DNA of 20,097 nucleotides, taken from a virus. The notes under the pieces are model-generated. The model ran no database searches, was not told the origin of the DNA, and saw only the letters and a program-made list of their open reading frames with translations. Shown piece after piece: positions 2,886 to 20,097 of this stretch (position 1 is the first letter of the stretch; each line of letters starts with the position of its first letter). Location of the stretch: IMG/VR virus record IMGVR_UViG_3300045769_000015, positions 1-20,097 of that record. One strand, written 5' to 3'. Position numbers and translations under genes: made by a program.

Positions 2886-4595
2886 TTGGGCAAACCCTTA
2901 CTGGAAATTTTTAACCTGGGGGGGCCGGCTCACCCGTCGCAGCAGGTGCAGGGCGCTGAGCGGGTCCTGGGCCTGGCGGCGGTGTACTCCGCGGTGCGGT
3001 ACATCGCTGACGCGGTGGCGTCGCTGCCGATCCTGGTGTACCGCACGGGGCGGAACGGCGAGCCGGTCAAGGTGCCGTATTCCCCGTTCCTGACCCAGCC
3101 GGGGGTGGCGGGCACCGCGTACGACTGGAAGTTCACGTGCATGTCCTCGGCGCTGCTGTGGGGCAACGCGTGGGGGCTGATCACGTCCCGGTCCGGTTTG
3201 ACCGCCCCGAACGGCCTGGGTTACCCCACGTCGGTGGAGTGGCTGCCGCCGGACCGGGTGTCGGTGCAGGACGACGAGCAGCAGCCGGAGAACCCGATGC
3301 GCGCCCGGGTGTACTACAACGGCGCGATCATGAACCGGGACAACCTGGTCCACGTGCGGGCGTTCCCGGTCGCGGGGAAGCTCGAGGGGATCTCCCCGAT
3401 GCGCGCGTTCGCGACGCTGTACGCGCAGGGCCTGTCGGCGCTGGATTACTCCGCTGAGTGGTTCCGGAACGGCGGGTTCCCGCCGGGGGTGTTCAAGAAC
3501 CAGACCGAGGAAGTCGACGCTGAGCAGTCGCGGGAGATCCGGCGGATGCTCACCGACGTGCTGCGCGCCCGGCAGCCGCTGGTGATCGGGAAGGACTGGG
3601 AGTACACCGCGATCAACGTGCCGCCGAACGAGGCGGTGTTCGTGCAGGCGATGCAGCTGAACGCGACGCAGGTCGCGGCGATCTACGGGCTGCCGGCGGA
3701 GAAGGTCGGCGGTACCCGCGGGTCTTCTCTCACGTACTCGACCGTGGTCCAGGAGACCATCAGCCTGATCACGGACACGCTGCGGCCGTGGCTGATGCGG
3801 CTGGAGGACCTGTTCACCCAGCTGCTGCCCGGCCCGCAGTACGCCAAGTTCGACACCGACTCGCTGCTGAAAACCGACTTGAAGACCCGCAACGAGATCT
3901 GGGAGATCCAGCGGAACATGGGCACCCGGACCGCGGATGAGCTCCGCGCGTACGACGACCTGCCGCCGCTGCCGGACGGGGTCGGCGCGGAGACCATCCC
4001 GCTGTCGATCGCGGAGCGGATGGCGGCGTCGGCGCGGGCGATCCCGAAGTCGATGATCGGGCAGCTGGTCCTGGAAACCGAGATCGCCGCGCAGCTCCTG
4101 GAGAAACTCCAGAAGGAAGGCCTCACCTCCGCGCCGGTGCCGGGGGTCCCGCCGATCCCGATGAGCCCGGAGTCCTACCTGGGGCATCAGGTCACCCTGG
4201 CGCGGATGTTCCCCGACGGGCAGAAAGAAGTCCGGGCGACCGGCTCGGACCGGGACCGCGCCGCCCGCCACATCCGCGCGGCGTGCGCCGCCGGGTGCCT
4301 GGACCCCGACGAGCAGGACACCCGGGTCAGTAACGCCCTCAAGGCCGGCACGACCCGCGGGCAGCTGAACGAGCTGACCGCGGACCTGCCCCCTGAAAAC
4401 GAGCTCGCCACTACCGCCGGTGGTGGCGTCAACGGCAGCAGCAGCCGGGCTGGGGATAAGCCGCGTCCCCTGTTCGGCCCGGCGGCCCTCGCGCTCCTGC
4501 ACGCACGGAGCATCGACATCGGCAACACGGCGGAGCCACCCCTGGCCGCCATGAACGGAAAGGACAGCGGCAGTGGCAGTCATCTCCACCACTGA
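2886..4595 (+). CDS. Phage portal protein (HK97/SPP1-type)
   Basis: The portal forms the dodecameric ring at the capsid vertex through which DNA passes. The family is shown by GLAAVYSAVRYIADAVASLP near residues 30-49, WLPPDRVSVQDD, the YSAEWFRNGGFPPGVFK segment, and LPAEKVGGTRGSSLTYSTVV followed by RPWLMRLEDLFTQLL. About 569 residues is slightly long for the family because of a C-terminal extension with a disordered Gly/Ser patch and the motif PRPLFGP (526-532). The start is uncertain: TTG 2886 is in frame but 13 bases from GGAGGGG (2866-2872), while ATG 2881, with ideal 8-base spacing, is in another frame that would need a shift at a run of seven G (2918-2924). The 3' end overlaps the protease start by 23 bases, implying coupling. 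Confidence 0.93.
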   Translation: MGKPLLEIFNLGGPAHPSQQVQGAERVLGLAAVYSAVRYIADAVASLPILVYRTGRNGEPVKVPYSPFLTQPGVAGTAYDWKFTCMSSALLWGNAWGLITSRSGLTAPNGLGYPTSVEWLPPDRVSVQDDEQQPENPMRARVYYNGAIMNRDNLVHVRAFPVAGKLEGISPMRAFATLYAQGLSALDYSAEWFRNGGFPPGVFKNQTEEVDAEQSREIRRMLTDVLRARQPLVIGKDWEYTAINVPPNEAVFVQAMQLNATQVAAIYGLPAEKVGGTRGSSLTYSTVVQETISLITDTLRPWLMRLEDLFTQLLPGPQYAKFDTDSLLKTDLKTRNEIWEIQRNMGTRTADELRAYDDLPPLPDGVGAETIPLSIAERMAASARAIPKSMIGQLVLETEIAAQLLEKLQKEGLTSAPVPGVPPIPMSPESYLGHQVTLARMFPDGQKEVRATGSDRDRAARHIRAACAAGCLDPDEQDTRVSNALKAGTTRGQLNELTADLPPENELATTAGGGVNGSSSRAGDKPRPLFGPAALALLHARSIDIGNTAEPPLAAMNGKDSGSGSHLHH

Positions 4596-8650: not shown

Positions 8651-8660
8651 GCCCGGCTTG

Positions 8661-9845
8661 GTGAGACGCGTCACCTGCGCAGGGTGCGGCGGCGAGCTCG
8701 AGGACTTCCTGGACCTCGGGTCGTCGCCGCTCGCCGACAGGTTCCCCGCCGCACCCGACGCCCCCGAACAGTGGTACCCCCTGCATGTCGCGGTCTGCGG
8801 CAGCTGCTGGCTGGTGCAGCTCCGCGACGTGGTCCCCGATGAGGACCTGTACGGCGCCGACTACGGGTTCAGCACCGGCGCGTCGCCGTCCTCCGCCGCG
8901 TACTTCAAGGGGTGGGCGGAATGGGCGCTGGACCGGTTCCCCGGCGCCCGGCAGCTGACCGTCGAGATCGCCTGCAACGACGGCACCCTGCTGCGGCACT
9001 TCGCCGACGCGGGCTGCCCGGTCCTCGGCATCGACCCGGCCGGCCCGGTCAAGCAGGCCGCCGTCCACGTCCCGGTGATCACCGAGCCGTTCACCCGCGA
9101 ACTCGCCGCGGAACTCGCCGAACTGCACGGCCCCGCCGGGCTGATCATCGCGTGCAACGTCGCCGCGCACGTCGCCGACCCCGCCGATTTCCTGTCCGGG
9201 ATCGCTGACCTGCTCGACCCCGGCGGCCGCGCCGTCACCGAATTCCAGTACCTCGGGGACCTGATCGCCGGCGGGCAGTACGACCACATCTACCACGAGC
9301 ACCGGTTCTTCTACTCCCTGCGGTCCTTCACCGCCCTCGCGCGCCGCGCCGGGCTGGCCGTCACCAGCTGGGAACGGACCCCCGCGCAAGGCGGCAGCCT
9401 GCGGGTCGTGCTCCGCAAGGACACCGGCGGTGACACCGGCCAGGCACCCGGCGAGAACTGGCTGCGGCGCCCCGGAACCTACGCCGAGTTCGCCGGCCGG
9501 GTCGCCTACAGCCGCACCCGGCTCCTCGAGCTCCTCGACGGCGAACTCGCCGCCGGCCGGACCGTCGCCGGGTTCGCGGCGTCAGCGAAATCCGCGACGC
9601 TGCTCAACTACTGCGGGATCGGACCGGACCGGGTCGGCTGGATCGAGGACACCACCCCCGCCAAGTGCGGCCGGTACACGCCCGGCAGCCACATCCCGGT
9701 CACCGCGCCCGGCGCCCGCCCGGCGCCGGACGTGTTCCTGCTGACCGCCTGGAACTACCTGCCCGGGGTGATCCGCCGGGAGAAGAAGTTCCTCGACGGC
9801 GGCGGCCGGTTCCTGGTCCCCGGGGCGCTCCCGGTGATCGTCTGA
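8661..9845 (+). CDS. Sugar C-methyltransferase (NDP-hexose C-methyltransferase family)
   Basis: This family transfers a methyl group from S-adenosylmethionine to a carbon of a keto-deoxyhexose bound to a nucleotide. Three domains are visible. The N-terminal zinc-binding domain has CAGCGG at the start and VCGSCWLVQL near residue 50. The central methyltransferase domain has VEIACNDGTLLRHF as the cofactor loop and LGIDP, then IIACNVAAHVADPADFL. The C-terminal domain has IYHEHRFFYSL, GGSLRVVL, FAASAKSATLLNYCGI, WIEDTTPAKCGRYTPGSHIP and LTAWNYLPGVI. Length, about 394 residues, matches TylC3-type enzymes. Tandem TTG-GTG codons (8658, 8661) open the gene without a strong ribosome site. The dehydratase next door could supply its 4-keto substrate; which carbon is methylated cannot be read from sequence. 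Confidence 0.88.
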   Translation: MRRVTCAGCGGELEDFLDLGSSPLADRFPAAPDAPEQWYPLHVAVCGSCWLVQLRDVVPDEDLYGADYGFSTGASPSSAAYFKGWAEWALDRFPGARQLTVEIACNDGTLLRHFADAGCPVLGIDPAGPVKQAAVHVPVITEPFTRELAAELAELHGPAGLIIACNVAAHVADPADFLSGIADLLDPGGRAVTEFQYLGDLIAGGQYDHIYHEHRFFYSLRSFTALARRAGLAVTSWERTPAQGGSLRVVLRKDTGGDTGQAPGENWLRRPGTYAEFAGRVAYSRTRLLELLDGELAAGRTVAGFAASAKSATLLNYCGIGPDRVGWIEDTTPAKCGRYTPGSHIPVTAPGARPAPDVFLLTAWNYLPGVIRREKKFLDGGGRFLVPGALPVIV

Positions 9846-9875
9846 CTCCCCTCCACCGCATCGGAGGTTCCTTTG

Positions 9876-10832
9876 GTGAGAGCGCTCATAACTGGTGTCA
9901 CGGGCCAAGATGGTTCATATCTGGCTGAGCAGCTGTCTGCGGACGGGTGGGAAGTCGCGGGGCTGATCCGCGGGCAGGCGAACCCGAAACGGGCGTGGAT
10001 CGCGGCGCTGGTCCCCGGGCTGCGCCTTGTCGACGGGGACCTGCTCGACCAGTCGTCGCTGCAGCGGGCCCTCGCCGATGTCCGCCCGGACGTGGTGTTC
10101 AACCTGGCCGCCGCGACGTTCGTCGGGATGTCATGGCAGCAGCCGACGGTGATGTCCGAGACCACCGGGATGGGTGTCCTGCGGATGCTCGAGGCGATCC
10201 GCGCGACCGACCCCGGCATCGTGATGGTCCACGCGTCAAGCTCGGAGATGTTCGGCTGCGCTGACACCCCGGTCCAGGATGAGCGGACGCCGCTGCGGCC
10301 GGTCAGCCCGTACGGTGTCGCGAAAACGTTCGCGCATCACTGCGCGGTCACCTACCGCGCCTCCCACGGCCTCCGGGTTTCCACGGTGATCATGTTCAAC
10401 CATGAGTCGCCGCGCCGCAGCGCGGAGTTCGTCACCCGGAAAGTCACCACGGCGGCCGCGGCGATCGCCGCGGGCACCCAGGACAAGCTGCTGCTGGGAC
10501 GCCTGGAACCGCGCCGCGACTGGGGGTGGGCGCCGGATTACATGCGGGCGCTGCCGCTGGTCGCGGCGGCGGAACCCGGCGACTGGGTGATCGCGACCGG
10601 TCAGTCCCATTCGGTCGCGGACCTGTGCGCGGCGGCGTTCGCCGAGGCGGGCCTGGACTGGCGGGACCACGTGGTCTCCGACACCGGGCTGCACCGCCCG
10701 TCGGAACTGTGGAGCCTGCGCGGTGACCCCGCCCGGATCCGCCGGGACCTGGGATGGGAACCGCAGGTGATGTTCGCCGACGTGGTGCGGCGGCTGATGA
10801 CCCACGACCTGGAAGCGGCCCGGTCAGCTTGA
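9876..10832 (+). CDS. gmd: GDP-mannose 4,6-dehydratase
   Basis: The enzyme converts GDP-mannose to GDP-4-keto-6-deoxymannose with bound NADP(H). It is an extended short-chain dehydrogenase. The cofactor loop is ITGVTGQDGSYLAEQL at the N-terminus; the catalytic region shows HASSSEMFG (about 110-120) and SPYGVAKTFAH, with Tyr and Lys of the YxxxK motif. The family signatures MFNHESPRRSAEFVTRKVT and LGRLEPRRDWGWAPDYM are complete. About 318 residues is slightly short but normal for viral and bacterial forms. GGAGG (9863-9867) precedes both TTG 9873 and GTG 9876; GTG has the better spacing. No GDP-fucose synthase or other reductase is seen nearby, so the 4-keto product would have to be used by the adjacent C-methyltransferase, a host reductase or a gene outside the window. 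Confidence 0.92.
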   Translation: MRALITGVTGQDGSYLAEQLSADGWEVAGLIRGQANPKRAWIAALVPGLRLVDGDLLDQSSLQRALADVRPDVVFNLAAATFVGMSWQQPTVMSETTGMGVLRMLEAIRATDPGIVMVHASSSEMFGCADTPVQDERTPLRPVSPYGVAKTFAHHCAVTYRASHGLRVSTVIMFNHESPRRSAEFVTRKVTTAAAAIAAGTQDKLLLGRLEPRRDWGWAPDYMRALPLVAAAEPGDWVIATGQSHSVADLCAAAFAEAGLDWRDHVVSDTGLHRPSELWSLRGDPARIRRDLGWEPQVMFADVVRRLMTHDLEAARSA

Positions 10833-10933: not shown

Positions 10934-11181
10934 TGCGACGGCGGCTCAGGTACCGCTGCGTCGCCTGCGGTGAGTACATCCGCAGCGTCAGGCTTCACGT
11001 CTGGCGCCGGCGCGCCCGGAGCTGGGTACGGAAACCGGGTACAGCGAGGGTCCGAGCCCGGCGCATCTCCGTTACCAGCACGAACGTATCGGTCGAATCG
11101 GATGGAGGCGACACGCCGGTGAGCGGAACGCGATTCCACCCCGCCGTGAACGGCAGGCCTTCCGGGGAGTTCCCCCGGTGA
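10933..11181 (+). CDS. Small basic protein with a single CxxC pair
   Basis: I do not recognise this protein. ATG 10933 overlaps the preceding small frame (TGATG), and its own stop overlaps the next GTG (GTGA), so it is likely translated in a coupled chain. The N-terminal 30 residues are strongly basic with one CxxC (RYRCVACGEYIRSVRLHVWR), resembling half of a zinc ribbon or an RNA/DNA-binding patch. The rest is Ser/Thr-rich with no visible fold. Codon bias is weaker than in its neighbours, so a recent or fast-changing gene, or a spacer with coupling function, is possible. Confidence 0.45.
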   Translation: MRRRLRYRCVACGEYIRSVRLHVWRRRARSWVRKPGTARVRARRISVTSTNVSVESDGGDTPVSGTRFHPAVNGRPSGEFPR

Positions 11182-11894
11182 AGGTGCTGACCCCGCGGGT
11201 TTCGTGCCTGATAACCAGCCACATGAAGCCGACGCTGCGGGACACCCTGAACAGCGTGCTCGCGCAGACCCGCCGGGACTTCGAAGCCGTCGTGATCGAC
11301 TCCGGCCAGTGGATCGGGGAGACCGGGAAGATCCCCGAGATCATGGCGGGGATCTACGCGGAGTTCTCCGGCCACCCGCTGATCAACTGGGTGACGACCG
11401 GGGAACGGCCGGGGCTGCCCGCCGCTGTCTGCCCCGTCGCGTGGGCGACGAACCGGGCCATCGAGGCGGGCCTGGCCCGCGGGCCTTACCTGTGCACCTT
11501 CTACGACGATGACCTGTACCGGCCTCCCTTCATGGAAGTGATGGCCGGGTACCTCGACGGGCACCCCGACGACGCCGCGGTGTGCTGCGCGCAGGCCCGG
11601 ATGGTGCTGCAGCGGGACGGCGGGACCCGCGCTGTGGGGGAGATCCGCTCGCCGCTGCCGCGCCGGATGGGGCAGTTCGACTGCCAGGTCGACGGTGCGA
11701 TGATCATGTTCCGGCGGGAGCTGCTCGACAAGCTGCCCGCCGGGCAGTGGCTGCCGGAGGACCCCGGCGGCTGCGGTCATTCCGACGGGGTGTTCATGGA
11801 GCGGCTCGCCGCCGCCGCCGGGATCATCCCCGGCATCGACGAGGTGCTGTGCGAGCACCGGAACACCCCCTGGTCCACCTACTCCCCCTCCTGA
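11178..11894 (+). CDS. Glycosyltransferase, GT-A fold (family 2-like)
   Basis: The enzyme would transfer a sugar from a nucleotide donor in the cytoplasm. The N-terminus has the GT2 pattern VSCLITSHMKPTLRDTLNSV followed by AQTRRDFEAVVIDSG. The metal-binding DXD motif is FYDDDLYRPPF near residues 112-122. A later HSDGVFMERLAAAAG segment (about 200) fits the position of the catalytic-base helix, though the usual ED pair is replaced by SDG. At 238 residues it is a single catalytic domain with no membrane helices. GTG 11178 overlaps the upstream stop, and GGGGAG lies nine bases before it. It belongs to the run dehydratase - small genes - GT - GT, which points to one glycan. Donor and acceptor are unknown. 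Confidence 0.82.
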   Translation: MKVLTPRVSCLITSHMKPTLRDTLNSVLAQTRRDFEAVVIDSGQWIGETGKIPEIMAGIYAEFSGHPLINWVTTGERPGLPAAVCPVAWATNRAIEAGLARGPYLCTFYDDDLYRPPFMEVMAGYLDGHPDDAAVCCAQARMVLQRDGGTRAVGEIRSPLPRRMGQFDCQVDGAMIMFRRELLDKLPAGQWLPEDPGGCGHSDGVFMERLAAAAGIIPGIDEVLCEHRNTPWSTYSPS

Positions 11895-11966: not shown

Positions 11967-14153
11967 GTGCCTGCCAGCGGCGCACCTGCGGTGTGGGGGA
12001 TCCACGACACGCAGCCCGACGATTCCGGGCGGCCGTCGGGCTGCGGGTTCTACCGGATCGTGCTGCCGCTGCGGACCCTGAAAGCGAACGGGTGGGACAC
12101 CCGGTGGCAGGCGGGGACCCCGCCGCCGGAATCAGCGCCGTACCGCCTCGTCGTCGGGGAACGCCTCGACCGCGCCGAAGCCCAGGGGCACTGGCGCCGG
12201 CTCCGCGCCCGCCACCGGCTGGTCTACGAGATCGACGACGACGTGTTCCACGTCGACCCGACGAACCACATGGCGTACCGGGTGTACGGCCAGCCCGGCG
12301 TGCAGGACGTCGTGTCCCACCTGGCCGCGACGTCCGACCTGGTCACCGTGACCACCGAGCCGCTCGCGGAGGTGATGCGGGAGCATAACCCGAACGTCGC
12401 GGTCCTGCCGAACTGCGTCCCCGGGTGGCTGTGCGACCACCCCCGCCCCCGCAACACCAAACCGGTCGTCGGGTGGACCGGCGGGGCGTCCCACACCCTC
12501 GACATCGCGATGATCGCCGAGACCGTCCGGGAGTTCATGCGGACCCGCCCGGACTGGGACCTGCACATCGTCGGGACCGATTTCCGGCCGACGCTGCACC
12601 TGCTCACCGCCCGGTTCACCCGCTGGGAACCAGACCCGGAGGACTACTACCGCAAACTCGACTTCGACATCGGGCTGTGCCCCCTCACCGGGTCGGTGTT
12701 CGACGCCGGCAAATGCATAGACTCTGGTATGAGAATTTCGACCGATCAGGGTGTCCTTGAAGCGGGCAGTATCGAGCCGGGCATCAGGGTCTGGCTGGAC
12801 GGCTGGCGCGAGGTGCGGGCGGTAGAACATCAACTCCAGCGGGCCGGGCTGCGTATCACCACGGTTCGCGGACTTCAGGTCACGGTCACTCCCGAGCACC
12901 GGCTGATGAACGGCTCCGGGGAATGGCGGCAGTCCCGCGACCTGAGCGTGGGGGATGCCCTGAAGCTAGTCCGGGAGGAATGCCCGGAACTGCCCTACCG
13001 GCGGGCGCCGTGGCCTGCCGACGGGCGGGTAACGCGAGCTGGCGCGGCGAACCCGATGGCGTTCCTGGACGTGCCCGAAGGACCGTCGGTCGCCATTACG
13101 GAAACCTGGGGCCGGATTCTCGGGCTTTTCACCGGCGACGGCAGCTTCTCCGGGAAGACCTCGATCCGCTTCTCTTGTGACGGTCAGGACGGTGACCTGA
13201 TCAAGTCGCTGATCGCCGACCTGGAATCAGCAGGTTTCCGGGCCACGACAGAACGAGTGACCACCTGGAAAGGCCAGGTGCTGCGACGTCGGCCAGTTAA
13301 CGTGTCCAGCGCCCATCTATCCCGCTTTCTGTGCGGGATCGGCGCCGCCAGGCCGCACTCGCGAACCGGCCAGCGGTGGGAACGGACCCTGCGGGTACCG
13401 GATGTTATTTTCCGCAGCCCGCTCACCGTACGGGCCGCGTTCCTGGCGGGGCTGTTCGAGGCCGACGGGACCGCAGCGCGTCAACGGGCTGATGTAACGC
13501 TGACGACCAAGAGCGAGGACCTGGCCCGGGACGTCCAGCGGTTGCTGTGGAGCATTGGGATATCTTCTGGCCTAGGCCAGAGCCGGGGGCCGAAGGGCAC
13601 AAAGTACGAGGACCGCATCTACTGGTCGGTCCGGCTGCGGTCTGCGGAAGCTGAGCTATTCGCGGCACACGTCGGTTTCCTCTCGGAACGCAAGCAGACC
13701 AGGCTCGCAGAAACCGTGAACCGGAGCCGTAGCAGGAACCAGGACAGGTCCCGGCAGCGGCCGAACAACGCCCGGCGGCCCATCCGCTGGGCCGACGAGA
13801 TCGCCTCCATCGAGCCCTGCATGGTATGCCCGGTCGACATCCAGGTCGACGGCGAGGCGTTTTCCGCCGCAGGGATACACAGCCACAATTCGGCCATCAA
13901 GGCGCAAGAGCTAGGCGCGCTCGGGATCCCGGTGATCGCCTCCGATGTGGAGGCGTACCGCGGTTACGTCGTCGACGGGGTGACGGGGTTCCTGGTGTCG
14001 ACTCCGAAGCAGTGGCGGGCCAGGTTGCGGGAGCTGGCCGGCGATGAGGCGCTCCGCGAGTCGATGGGCGCTAAGGCGAGGGAGCTGGCCCGGCAGCACA
14101 CCATCGAGGGCAACTGGCAGCGGTGGGCGGACGCGTACACGCCGCTTCTCTAG
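11967..14153 (+). CDS. Glycosyltransferase, GT-B fold (family 4-like), interrupted by an intein
   Basis: After protein splicing this is a 336-residue GT4-like glycosyltransferase. The N-terminal half has GCGFYRIVLPLRTLKANGWD, YEIDDDVFHVDPTNHMAYRV and LVTVTTEPLAEVM, followed by NVAVLPNCVP. The C-terminal half has KPVVGWTGGASHTLDI, the strand DLHIVGTDF, and IGLCPLTGSVFDAGK. This joins precisely to SAIKAQELGALGIPVIASDV, rebuilding the conserved sugar-nucleotide site in which family members read roughly K-S-x-x-K-x-x-E. The 392 residues between are the intein, described separately. The gene ends with TAG 14151-14153, overlapping the stop of a minus-strand gene. Start GTG 11967 lacks a close ribosome site but follows a six-codon frame that may couple it. 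Activity should depend on splicing, since the intein splits the substrate-binding motif. Confidence 0.88.
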   Translation: MPASGAPAVWGIHDTQPDDSGRPSGCGFYRIVLPLRTLKANGWDTRWQAGTPPPESAPYRLVVGERLDRAEAQGHWRRLRARHRLVYEIDDDVFHVDPTNHMAYRVYGQPGVQDVVSHLAATSDLVTVTTEPLAEVMREHNPNVAVLPNCVPGWLCDHPRPRNTKPVVGWTGGASHTLDIAMIAETVREFMRTRPDWDLHIVGTDFRPTLHLLTARFTRWEPDPEDYYRKLDFDIGLCPLTGSVFDAGKCIDSGMRISTDQGVLEAGSIEPGIRVWLDGWREVRAVEHQLQRAGLRITTVRGLQVTVTPEHRLMNGSGEWRQSRDLSVGDALKLVREECPELPYRRAPWPADGRVTRAGAANPMAFLDVPEGPSVAITETWGRILGLFTGDGSFSGKTSIRFSCDGQDGDLIKSLIADLESAGFRATTERVTTWKGQVLRRRPVNVSSAHLSRFLCGIGAARPHSRTGQRWERTLRVPDVIFRSPLTVRAAFLAGLFEADGTAARQRADVTLTTKSEDLARDVQRLLWSIGISSGLGQSRGPKGTKYEDRIYWSVRLRSAEAELFAAHVGFLSERKQTRLAETVNRSRSRNQDRSRQRPNNARRPIRWADEIASIEPCMVCPVDIQVDGEAFSAAGIHSHNSAIKAQELGALGIPVIASDVEAYRGYVVDGVTGFLVSTPKQWRARLRELAGDEALRESMGAKARELARQHTIEGNWQRWADAYTPLL
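12714..13889 (+). other. Intein with LAGLIDADG homing endonuclease (392 aa) in a glycosyltransferase
   Basis: The insert starts at Cys (codon 12714) and ends His-Asn (13884-13889) before Ser+1 (13890), the exact chemistry of a class 1 intein. Block A is CIDSGMRISTDQGVLEAGS; block B is LQVTVTPEHRLM with Thr59 and His62; the C-terminal blocks read CPVDIQVDGEAFSAAG then GIHSHN. Between them lie two dodecapeptides of a LAGLIDADG endonuclease, ILGLFTGDGSF (Asp142) and FLAGLFEADGTA (Asp251), both with the catalytic acid, so the endonuclease may be active. Base use is visibly less GC-biased at third positions than in the flanking extein, suggesting a later arrival. Positions are intein residues counted from Cys1. 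All splicing residues are present, so splicing is expected. Confidence 0.93.
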
Positions 14154-16283: not shown

Positions 16284-19200
16284 GTGCCAGTTTCAGGTGC
16301 CGCGGCGCTGACCGGAACCGGTGCCCTGACCGCCGCCGGAACCCAGCAACCCGGCGCGGCGCTGGCCGGCGCCGGCACGCTGACCGCCACGACCAACATC
16401 ACGCCCGCCGCGGCGGCGCTGGCCGGTACCGGCGTGATGGGCTCACCGTCAGCTTTCACCGTCGTCACCGCCGGCGCCGCCCAGTCCACGGCCGGCAACG
16501 CGCAGTCGGTGAGCAACCCCGCGTGGAACGGGACCTCAACCCCGGCCGGGTCGCTGGTGCTGCTGTGGTGCGTCGCCAGCTCGGTCTCGGACACGTTCAC
16601 CTGCACCGGGTTCACTGCGGTCACCGCGACCAGCGGCGGCGCGAACGGCTCCGCGCAGCTGCTCTACCGCACCACCGACGGCACCGAAGGCGCGACGTTC
16701 GCGGTGACCGCCGCGGTGACCCACACCCTGAACGTCGCGGCCGCGGTCATCACCGGGCAGTTCAGTACCAGCCCGTTCGACCCTGCCCCCGTCAGCTCGG
16801 GTACGGTGAACGCCGCGACCGGGACCACCCTGCCCGCCGCCGGCCCCGTCACCACAAGACCCGGTGACCTGCTGGTCTGGTTCGGGTTCTCCCGGGTCCC
16901 GTCCGGCACCCCGGTCGCGATCACCCCGCCGGCCGGGTACACCACCGTCCTAGCCCAGGTCAACAGCACCACCACCGGCGCGAACCTCGGCGTCCTCATC
17001 GCCACCGCCGTCCAGCCGGCAGCCGGGACAACCGCCACCGCGGCCGGCAGCATGCCGTCGGCGAACGGCGGCGCGTTCCTGCTCGCCGTCGCAGCGGCCC
17101 CCGCCACCGCGGCGCTGTCCGGAACCGGCGTGTTCTACGGCTACGGCGAATGGACCCCGCCCGGCGCCGCGCACCTGTCCGGCACCGGCGTGATGAACCC
17201 CGTGCCCGGCACGTTCTGGATGACGAACTCCGCCTACATCACCGACCTGTACGGCGTCGACCCGGTCACCACCGGGGTTTACTTCAACACCCCCCTGTCC
17301 TTCTCGATCGGCACCAGCCAGTCGGCACCCGGCTCGCTGCCCAGCGGGTACACCACCACCCCGCTCCTGAAATACGTCGCGTACGGGCAGTTCCTCGCCG
17401 ACATCACCGGCGTCGCCCAGACCATCAGCGGCATCACGTACACCCCCGTCGCGATCAGCCCGCTGTACCACTGGCTGATGTACGACAACGAGGACTGGAA
17501 CCCGAACCCGCCGGCGCCGTATACCTCCGCCGTGGCGCAAGCCGAGATCGACGACCCGTGGACGTACATGGGGTTGTTCGTCGCCCTCGCGCACGCGAAC
17601 GGGTACCAGGTCATCTGCGCGCCTGGCCGGGACCTCGGCAACGACCCGACCTGCGTGAACCCGCCCCTCGCCGGCGAGGGGCTGGACGCCTGGTTCCTCC
17701 GCACGAACATCGCGGGGGCCGCCGCCGCCGCCGGCGCTGACATCGTGCACATCCAGACCCAGACCGACCAGGGCACCGGCGAATTCGCGTACCTGTACGC
17801 CACCGCCGCCGCGCAGGTCGCCGCCGCGGGGACCTCCGCGCAGGTTTCCGCCGGGGTGTCGACCACCACCCCCGTCGGGATCACGGCACCGGATATGGTG
17901 TGGTCGGCGTACTCCGTGTTCGCCCAGACCGGCGGGTTCTGGCTTAACGCCACCGCCGCGACCATCACCATGGCGGACCAGTTCCTGCTCTTGATGCTGC
18001 CCGGTGTCCCGTCCGTGTACGGGTACGGCATCGGGGCCCTGACCGCCGGCGGCCTCGTTCAGCAGCCCGCCGTGCCGCTGGCCGGGACCGGGACGCTGAC
18101 CGTCGCCGGGGCCCTCCAGGAACCCGCCGCGGCGCTGGCCGGGACCGGGACGCTGACCATCGCCGGGGCCCTCCAGGAACCCGCCGCGGCGCTGGCCGGG
18201 ACCGGGACGCTGACCATCGCCGGGGTCACCCAGCAGCCCGCCGCGGCGCTGGCCGGGACCGGGACCCTGGCAGCGGCTGCGCTCACGCGGGCCACGGTAG
18301 CCCTGGCGGGCACCGGGTCGGCCGTCACCGGTGTCGCCGGCGCCGAATCGGTCGCGCTCGCCGGGACCGGGACCCTGACCATCGCCGGGGTCACCCAGCT
18401 CCCCGCCGAGCCGCTGGCCGGGACCGGGACCCTGACCGTCGCCGGGGTCACCCAGCAGCCCGCCGCGGCGCTGGCCGGGACCGGGACGCTGACCGCCGCC
18501 GGGCGCCCCCCCGGCACCGCGGCGCTGGCCGGGACCGGGACCCTGGGCACGGCGGCGCTCACGCGGGCCACGGCGGCGCTGACCGGAACCGGGACCCTGG
18601 GCGCGACGGGCTGGGCGGTCACCTTCGCCGGCGCGGCGCTGACCGGAACCGGGTCGCTGGGCGCGGTGCCCGGCACGTTCTGGATGTCGAACACCACCTA
18701 CATCACCTCGCTGTACGGCGTCGACCCGGTCACGACCGGGATTTTCTTCAACAACCCGCTGTCCTTCGCGATCTCCACCAGCCAGACCACCCCCGGCACC
18801 ATGCCGTCGGGGTACACCACCACCCCGGTCCTGAAATACATCTCCTACGGGCAGTTCCTCGCCGACATCACCGGGATCGCCCAGACCATCTCCGGGATCA
18901 CCTACACCCCCGTCGCGATCAACGCGGTCTACCAGTGGCTGATGTACGACAACGAGCTCTGGTCCCCGAACCCGCCCACGGGATTCACCTCCGCCGCCGC
19001 GCAGGCCGAGATCGACGACCCGTGGACCTACATGGCCGACTTCGTCACCTTGGCGCACGCCCACGGATTCCAGGTCATCTGCACCCCCGCCCGGGACCTC
19101 GGCAACGACCCGACCAGCGTGATCCCGCTGAACAACGGCGAAAGCCTGGACGCCTGGTACGTGCGGGTGAACCTCGCCGGGACCGCCGCCGCAGCCGGCG

Positions 19201-20097
19201 CTGACGTCGTGCACATCCAGACTCAGGCCGACCAGGGCACCGCGGAGTTCGCGAGCTTCTGGGCCAGCACCTACGCCCAGGTCCGCGCGGCGGCCGGCGG
19301 GTCCTCCACCGTCATCTCCGCCGGGGTGTCGACCACCTCTCCGGGCGGGGTCACGGCCGCGCAGATGGCATCGTCGGCGCAGTCCGTGCTGAGCCAGGCC
19401 GAGGGGTTCTGGCTGAACGCGTCCACCGCCACCATCTCGGTGGCGGACGCGTTCCTGCTCGCGATGCTCGGCGTCGCGCCCGCCACCGCGGCGTTCGCCG
19501 GCACCGGGACGCTGGGCGCCGCCGCCGTCCAGCAGCCGGGCGCGGGCCTGTCCGGTTCGGGTGCCCTGACCGCCGCAGCCGTCCAGAAGCCCGCCGCCGC
19601 GCTGGCCGGCACCGGGACCATGACCGCCGGCGCCGGCCAGCTCCCCGCTGCGGCCCTGGGCGGCGCCGGCACGCTGACGGCGGCCGCCGTGCTGGCCGGG
19701 GCGGGGACCCTGACGGGGGCAGGGGCGCTCACCGCCGCGGTCACCTGGCCGTCCGCCGCTGCGCTCACCGGCACCGGGACCCTGGGCGCCGGGGTCACCT
19801 GGCCGTCCGCCGCTGCGCTCACCGGCACCGGGACGCTGGGCGCCGGGGCGACCCAGCAGCCCGCCGCGGCGCTGGCCGGGGCCGGGACCCTGGGCGCCGC
19901 CGCGACGGACATCATCGGCGGGTACAGCGGCAACTTCATCAGCGACCCGAACTTCTCAGACGGCACCACCGGACCGTGGGCCCCGGGCACCGCCGGGGCG
20001 TGCACCCTGGCCGCGTCGACGGCGCAGGCGCACAGCGGCGCCTACTCCCTCGCCCTGACCGCCGGGCTGAACGTCTCCACCCCGTACGCCGAGATCT
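16284..20097 (+). CDS. Very large repetitive tail-fibre/receptor-binding-like protein, 3'-truncated by the window edge
   Basis: GTG 16284, six bases after AAGGGGGG, opens a frame that stays open for 1271 codons to the window end. Residues 1-50 carry three copies of an ALAGTGTLT-type repeat. Residues about 52-285 form a beta-rich domain (SLVLLWCVASSVSDT, RPGDLLVWFGFSRVP). Residues 307-574 and 795-1067 are two copies of one domain, opening with GTFWM and LYGVDPVTTG and containing WLMYDNE, DDPWTYM, GYQVICAPGRDLGNDPT, DIVHIQTQTDQGT and GFWLNA. The alternating strand-helix rhythm and acidic residues suggest a TIM-barrel, glycoside-hydrolase-like fold (inference). Repeat arrays fill 575-794 and 1068-1210. 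From 1213 a carbohydrate-binding-module-like sandwich begins (FISDPNFSDGTTGPW, HSGAYSLALT). The likely role is host-surface contact or glycan digestion at the tail. Confidence 0.75.
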   Translation, partial: MPVSGAAALTGTGALTAAGTQQPGAALAGAGTLTATTNITPAAAALAGTGVMGSPSAFTVVTAGAAQSTAGNAQSVSNPAWNGTSTPAGSLVLLWCVASSVSDTFTCTGFTAVTATSGGANGSAQLLYRTTDGTEGATFAVTAAVTHTLNVAAAVITGQFSTSPFDPAPVSSGTVNAATGTTLPAAGPVTTRPGDLLVWFGFSRVPSGTPVAITPPAGYTTVLAQVNSTTTGANLGVLIATAVQPAAGTTATAAGSMPSANGGAFLLAVAAAPATAALSGTGVFYGYGEWTPPGAAHLSGTGVMNPVPGTFWMTNSAYITDLYGVDPVTTGVYFNTPLSFSIGTSQSAPGSLPSGYTTTPLLKYVAYGQFLADITGVAQTISGITYTPVAISPLYHWLMYDNEDWNPNPPAPYTSAVAQAEIDDPWTYMGLFVALAHANGYQVICAPGRDLGNDPTCVNPPLAGEGLDAWFLRTNIAGAAAAAGADIVHIQTQTDQGTGEFAYLYATAAAQVAAAGTSAQVSAGVSTTTPVGITAPDMVWSAYSVFAQTGGFWLNATAATITMADQFLLLMLPGVPSVYGYGIGALTAGGLVQQPAVPLAGTGTLTVAGALQEPAAALAGTGTLTIAGALQEPAAALAGTGTLTIAGVTQQPAAALAGTGTLAAAALTRATVALAGTGSAVTGVAGAESVALAGTGTLTIAGVTQLPAEPLAGTGTLTVAGVTQQPAAALAGTGTLTAAGRPPGTAALAGTGTLGTAALTRATAALTGTGTLGATGWAVTFAGAALTGTGSLGAVPGTFWMSNTTYITSLYGVDPVTTGIFFNNPLSFAISTSQTTPGTMPSGYTTTPVLKYISYGQFLADITGIAQTISGITYTPVAINAVYQWLMYDNELWSPNPPTGFTSAAAQAEIDDPWTYMADFVTLAHAHGFQVICTPARDLGNDPTSVIPLNNGESLDAWYVRVNLAGTAAAAGADVVHIQTQADQGTAEFASFWASTYAQVRAAAGGSSTVISAGVSTTSPGGVTAAQMASSAQSVLSQAEGFWLNASTATISVADAFLLAMLGVAPATAAFAGTGTLGAAAVQQPGAGLSGSGALTAAAVQKPAAALAGTGTMTAGAGQLPAAALGGAGTLTAAAVLAGAGTLTGAGALTAAVTWPSAAALTGTGTLGAGVTWPSAAALTGTGTLGAGATQQPAAALAGAGTLGAAATDIIGGYSGNFISDPNFSDGTTGPWAPGTAGACTLAASTAQAHSGAYSLALTAGLNVSTPYAEI
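17202..18003 (+). repeat. Duplicated barrel-like domain, copy 1
   Basis: This segment encodes residues 307-574 of the fibre-like protein and is homologous to 18666-19479. Shared landmarks in order are VPGTFWM, LYGVDPVTTG, QFLADITG, AQTISGITYTPVAI, WLMYDNE, AEIDDPWTYM, RDLGNDPT, GAD.VHIQTQ and GFWLNA. The copies differ at many scattered sites, so the duplication is not recent. Confidence 0.85.
18006..18665 (+). repeat. Array of about 11 degenerate 51-60-base repeats in the fibre gene
   Basis: The unit encodes about 17-20 residues of the form ALAGTGTLTIAGVTQQPA. Two neighbouring units near 18120-18235 are almost identical at the DNA level with a 57-base period. The array links the two barrel-like domains. 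At protein level the Leu, Gly and Thr spacing suggests stacked short beta turns forming a rod, an inference. Confidence 0.85.
18666..19479 (+). repeat. Duplicated barrel-like domain, copy 2
   Basis: This encodes residues 795-1067 and is the partner of 17202-18003. It keeps the YDNE, DDPWTYM, RDLGNDPT and VHIQTQ landmarks, so both copies retain the same conserved acidic positions. It is followed directly by the next repeat array. Confidence 0.85.
19480..19905 (+). repeat. Second array of about 8 degenerate repeats in the fibre gene
   Basis: Units again follow the ALAGTGTLGAA pattern with 18-19-residue periods and some shorter ones. Two adjacent units starting at 19740 and 19794 (54 bases apart, VTWPSAAALTGTGTLGAG) are nearly identical in DNA. 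The array joins the second barrel-like domain to the carbohydrate-binding-like segment. Confidence 0.82.

Follow-up and report, generated by a model that had tools for sequence, protein, structure and literature searches.

A class 1 intein with a LAGLIDADG homing endonuclease very probably interrupts the predicted sugar-nucleotide-binding loop of a phage GT-B glycosyltransferase, and has spread repeatedly at the same lysine-serine (K|S) junction. The copy that we examined resides in a 20,097-nucleotide stretch of viral DNA (IMG/VR record IMGVR_UViG_3300045769_000015, hereafter called the window), in which all features described below are encoded on the plus strand. The host gene (11967..14153) begins with a GTG start codon and encodes a 728-amino-acid glycosyltransferase precursor, of which residues 250-641 (nucleotides 12714-13889) constitute a 392-amino-acid, in-frame insert that carries neither a stop codon nor a frame change. 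The insert separates a 249-amino-acid N-extein that ends in VFDAGK (11967..12713) from an 87-amino-acid C-extein that starts with the Ser+1 residue (SAIKAQELGALGIPVIAS...; 13890..14150). A sequence-only reading had proposed a full-length class 1 intein with an endonuclease at this location; its coordinates proved to be exact, and all the residues and both of the motifs that it listed are present.

The intein (CIDSG...HSHN) is defined by its ORF translation, by an alignment of eight copies, by profile matches and by its predicted fold. The first splicing nucleophile, Cys1 (12714..12716), is invariant in all eight copies, as is the histidine of block B, which reads T59-P-E-H62 in the window (12888..12899) and thus matches the TxxH pattern. 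Two LAGLIDADG motifs follow, GRILGLFTGDG (13110..13142, with GLFTGDG at intein residues 137-143) and AFLAGLFEADG (13437..13469, with GLFEADG at residues 246-252). Their acidic residues, D142 and D251, are retained in every copy along with the surrounding GDG and FEADG sequences. Block F (CPVDIQVDGEAFSAAG; 13827..13874) carries PVD and QV-G segments that are likewise invariant, and the histidine usually found in this block is replaced by glutamate in the window copy, at a position that is less conserved. The intein ends with the block G residues H391-N392 (13884..13889), directly followed by Ser+1, and both the terminal S-H-N and the HN|S junction are found in eight of eight copies. A class 3 assignment is ruled out by the criteria of PMC4031507, because position F:4 is an aspartate (Asp375) rather than a cysteine and Cys1 is present, as is the case for class 1 inteins.

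Profile searches and structure models are consistent with this anatomy. When residues 250-641 were compared with profiles, as the sequence-only reading had suggested, LAGLIDADG_3 (PF14528) matched intein residues 239-316 with an E value of 1.1e-17, and Hom_end matched as well. PF14528 matches all eight copies, TIGR01445 (intein_Nterm) matches seven of the eight, and the splicing-domain profile PF14890 (Intein_splicing) matches all eight with a best E value of 2.1e-9, the match of the window copy being weak (E 9e-4) and under Pfam's curated cut-off. An AlphaFold model of the precursor (pLDDT 81.8, with low confidence at the junctions and in some linkers) has as its closest PDB structures the TliVMA intein (E 9e-16) and PI-SceI, followed by I-DmoI, while its extein part matches BshA and MshA.

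An assembly artefact is an unlikely source of the insert, because the ORF is intact and the identical precursor protein is encoded by a second contig of the same phage (IMGVR 3300037136_000044; 17,488 bp, with 99.1% identity across 14 kb), with zero nucleotide differences within the intein. Most of the differences between the two contigs fall in a long ORF at 16284-20096, which contains many imperfect AALAGTGTLT-type repeats, includes two copies of a longer module that are ~75% identical (17161-18501 and 18628-19902), and probably encodes a tail-fibre-like product.

The claim that the host protein is a glycosyltransferase was borne out. The PHROG 7162 glycosyltransferase profile (E 2.7e-45) matches the exteins in two stretches, the best of which spans residues 22-249, and GT1 Pfam families (Glycos_transf_1; PF00534 and PF13692) match the C-terminal side. 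Together with the predicted BshA/MshA fold, these matches identify the extein as a GT-B (GT4-like) enzyme. The model of an intein-free relative (L003; pLDDT 94.3) likewise finds its best PDB matches among BshA and MshA GT4 structures (E 4e-15). In these models, the K|S junction lies in a loop preceding a helix with an invariant glutamate, within the stretch equivalent to the EX7E motif of MshA, and the insertion point is therefore predicted to be the sugar-nucleotide-binding loop, a conserved location as had been proposed. Both the lysine and the serine that flank the insertion are invariant in the aligned family, and so the Ser+1 splicing nucleophile was already part of the ancestral enzyme. 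The earlier description of a perfect GT4 site is too strong: removal of the insert does rebuild the site, and the second glutamate of the family consensus FNxSK|SxxKxxE is invariant, but the first glutamate position is not conserved and the motif is not a textbook EX7E.

Three further sugar genes precede the interrupted gene and lie outside the intein. These encode a C-methyltransferase-type protein (8658..9845; PF08484, PF08421 and PF13489), a GDP-mannose 4,6-dehydratase-like protein (9873..10832; PF16363, E 1.4e-98) and a GT2-like glycosyltransferase (11178..11894; PF00535, E 1.5e-9). The capsid gene lies on one side of the sugar genes, including the interrupted glycosyltransferase, and the large repeat-rich ORF starting at 16284 lies on the other; the probable product of the cassette is a sugar for the virion or for the host surface. 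GC content and the existence of a Streptomyces relative suggest an actinobacterial host. Rfam and tRNA searches of the window found nothing. Elsewhere in the window, the ORF for the portal protein (2886-4595) carries a C-terminal match to a DUF1707 SHOCT-like domain (E 9e-13), which is odd for a portal.

Intein-free alleles, which the sequence-only reading had called for, proved to be abundant. More than 150 viral contigs carry an uninterrupted gene, and alignment across K/S is clean; the failure to align that had been named as evidence against an intein was not seen. For example, L003 aligns gaplessly across the junction, with 51% identity in the N-extein and 63% in the C-extein, and such alignments speak against a chance resemblance to an intein. 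The insert is absent wherever the site is readable among 80 further loci from one alignment search, and an N-extein search yielded 15 more loci that lack it. Among the 80 contigs of a second clade, of Streptomyces type, 76 have a vacant site, and the intein is carried by the other four, which represent three distinct genes. Some contigs recur between these searches, and the counts therefore represent loci rather than unrelated phages. The window's own gene shares no more than ~55-57% identity with its closest empty relatives. An apparently free-standing HNH-like endonuclease ORF was noted by eye in L003 (2531-3349), downstream of its capsid gene.

The identical K|S site is occupied by the same intein in seven further distinct environmental phage transferase genes (L008/L011, on a 210 kb contig; L012; L013/L014; L015; L016; L017; and L018/L019), on contigs whose GC content ranges from about 39% (L018/L019) to 71%. 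L016, which is the same as L009, derives from plasmid pS1D4-14.2 of Streptomyces sp. S1D4-14. This plasmid, which is probably a phage-plasmid, includes a phage tape-measure gene. Its glycosyltransferase precursor with intein (L009 7239-9425; WP_143599400.1) is annotated only as ‘LAGLIDADG family homing endonuclease’. For each carrier the intein is closer to that of the window than is the extein, with intein versus extein identities of 74% and 47% for L011, 68% and 48% for L012, 48% and 26% for L013, 45% and 23% for L015, 46% and 28% for L016, 46% and 26% for L017, and 40% and 28% for L018. No member of this lineage was found among 50,697 GenBank phage records, and the only intein found in bacterial chromosomes, in what appears to be a ribonucleotide reductase gene of Dictyobacter, is unrelated. 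Weak second matches were also observed on some carrier contigs. In L018/L019, a hit to the N-terminal portion of the intein profile (G008:C1:114719-115000 and G009:C1:65759-66040) sits in a 1302-amino-acid open frame and may represent a further intein in the same phage, and the L012 contig has a weak intein-like match in a 674-amino-acid open frame (G002:C1:55924-56283).

Two extein trees were used to count changes in the presence of the intein. At least five are required on the first (73 rows), and on the second (69 rows) the four carriers represent four separate changes (at least four), although such counts on extein trees alone do not separate gains from losses. For the first tree, topologies that unite all carriers in one clade, or that group only the window, L011 and L012, are rejected (AU p 0.0005 and 0.0003). 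The four carriers of the second tree also have close empty relatives, with best identities of 91% (L013 and L172), 86% (L017 and L167), 81% (L016 and L124) and 79% (L015 and L160). Such a combination of a shared intein, diverged exteins and closely related empty genes is what homing usually leaves behind. Because of the extein trees and the empty genes that are 81-91% identical, we regard repeated horizontal mobility of the intein at one glycosyltransferase site as established by these comparisons.

Additional observations bear on this mobility to differing degrees. In the 120 nucleotides upstream of the site, two of four carriers diverge from their nearest empty relative beyond all 35 empty-empty control pairs, as expected if donor flanks had been co-converted; the other two show no excess, and this comparison was conceived only once the data had been seen. 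Intein dN/dS values of 0.08-0.23 indicate purifying selection. Two candidate lines of evidence were set aside. Use of AAA for the junction lysine as a homing signature is weak (4/7 versus 8/47 in high-GC genes, p 0.036, post hoc), and the conflicting placement of L011 and L012 in the intein tree has supports of 91/92, yet the AU test does not reject a vertical grouping (p 0.12). The lower GC of the intein had been taken as a sign of recent transfer. Although third-position GC is indeed 0.78 in the window's intein versus 0.93 in its extein, the offset is found in eight of eight copies, even in the contig with 39% GC, and the nearest copies are already saturated at synonymous sites, making synonymous-rate dating uninformative. 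Therefore, the offset is a family trait that does not date the transfer.

These data suggest a conventional life cycle. The precursor would be translated as a single chain and would excise the intein by the standard route, in which an acyl shift at Cys1 is followed by transesterification to Ser+1, cyclisation of Asn392 and an O-N shift. Judging from the residues, the fold and the family, this would join K to S and yield an active transferase, and splicing would be needed before sugar transfer. Once free, the intein may cleave the DNA of alleles that lack it, at the codons for K|S, and repair of the cut allele would copy the intein in.

Endonuclease activity is often lost by inteins. The glutamate in place of the block F histidine in the window copy would be compatible with an endonuclease that is no longer active, the splicing-competent intein being vertically inherited in each phage. 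We consider this unlikely, given that none of the eight copies has lost either of the acidic LAGLIDADG motifs, that dN/dS is low, and that a sporadic pattern with 81-91% identical empty sisters points to recent mobility of the family. Far less probable is cleavage that is not followed by ligation, in which a bacterial intein-like domain, or a homing endonuclease fused into the protein, would leave two extein halves. The public annotation of the Streptomyces relative, which names the whole protein a LAGLIDADG endonuclease, could be read in this way, but this outcome is very unlikely when every splicing residue, including Ser+1, is present in eight of eight copies and the extein halves, placed end to end, line up precisely with an uninterrupted family.

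The possibility that the intein serves as a post-translational switch, keeping the glycosyltransferase inactive until an infection cue, had also been raised. The predicted sugar-nucleotide site is interrupted, and so the precursor should be inactive; moreover, conditional splicing has been described for other inteins, such as that of mycobacterial DnaB (PMC8557812). However, the intein is missing from the vast majority of homologues, which presumably function without it, no sign of a cue is present at the locus, and as of 2014 no physiological role had been found for conditional splicing (PMC4031507). Purifying selection and a sporadic distribution fit a selfish homing element, and we consider the switch very unlikely. 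A broader version, in which a dedicated intein lineage of phage surface-sugar rather than DNA-metabolism genes times the glycosylation cassette by conditional splicing, is extremely unlikely. The reading that we favor thus remains that of a homing intein that has spread repeatedly at K|S.

The window thus holds a well-supported, novel intein lineage whose host protein is unusual and whose mechanism is probably ordinary. Chitin synthases are GT2/GT-A enzymes, not GT4, and so a shared insertion site is not expected. The inteins of fungal chitin synthases (PMC5784728) resemble that of the window in having a sugar-transferring host enzyme, but they reside in nuclear fungal genes; the earlier view of the host as unusual therefore stands for a phage intein, although it is not unique. 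Mycobacteriophage inteins (Kelley et al., 2016; PMC5050341) share with the window's a sporadic occurrence, conserved active-site motifs, high-GC actinobacterial phages and horizontal spread. In contrast, their 13 host protein groups, which include terminase, helicase, portal and methylase but no glycosyltransferase, are described as nucleic-acid binding. The best structural matches, TliVMA (7qsu, 7qss) and PI-SceI, have the same combined splicing and LAGLIDADG fold but V-ATPase hosts and ~12-16% identity. Among GenBank phages, the most similar intein found is that of the crAss-like phage cr56_1 terminase (NC_055890; 27-30% identity over the full length), which lies in another protein and at another site. 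MshA and BshA (3c4q, 3mbo) share the predicted extein fold, with K|S mapping inside the MshA EX7E loop, but they carry no intein, and the first glutamate of EX7E is not conserved in the phage family. A search of the open-access literature found no paper on a phage glycosyltransferase intein.

Phage intein hosts have been thought to be nucleic-acid-binding proteins, and accounts of intein mobility lean on this association. The findings described above add a new set of inteins at a Lys|Ser junction, where splicing is expected from the conserved residues. They also correct annotation, in that such glycosyltransferase genes can carry only a ‘LAGLIDADG homing endonuclease’ label. At a single site, one intein lineage appears to have invaded a sugar-transfer gene on many occasions; the numerous empty alleles serve as controls, and the empty sisters that are 91%, 86% and 81% identical provide a matched system for homing in a gene unrelated to DNA metabolism.
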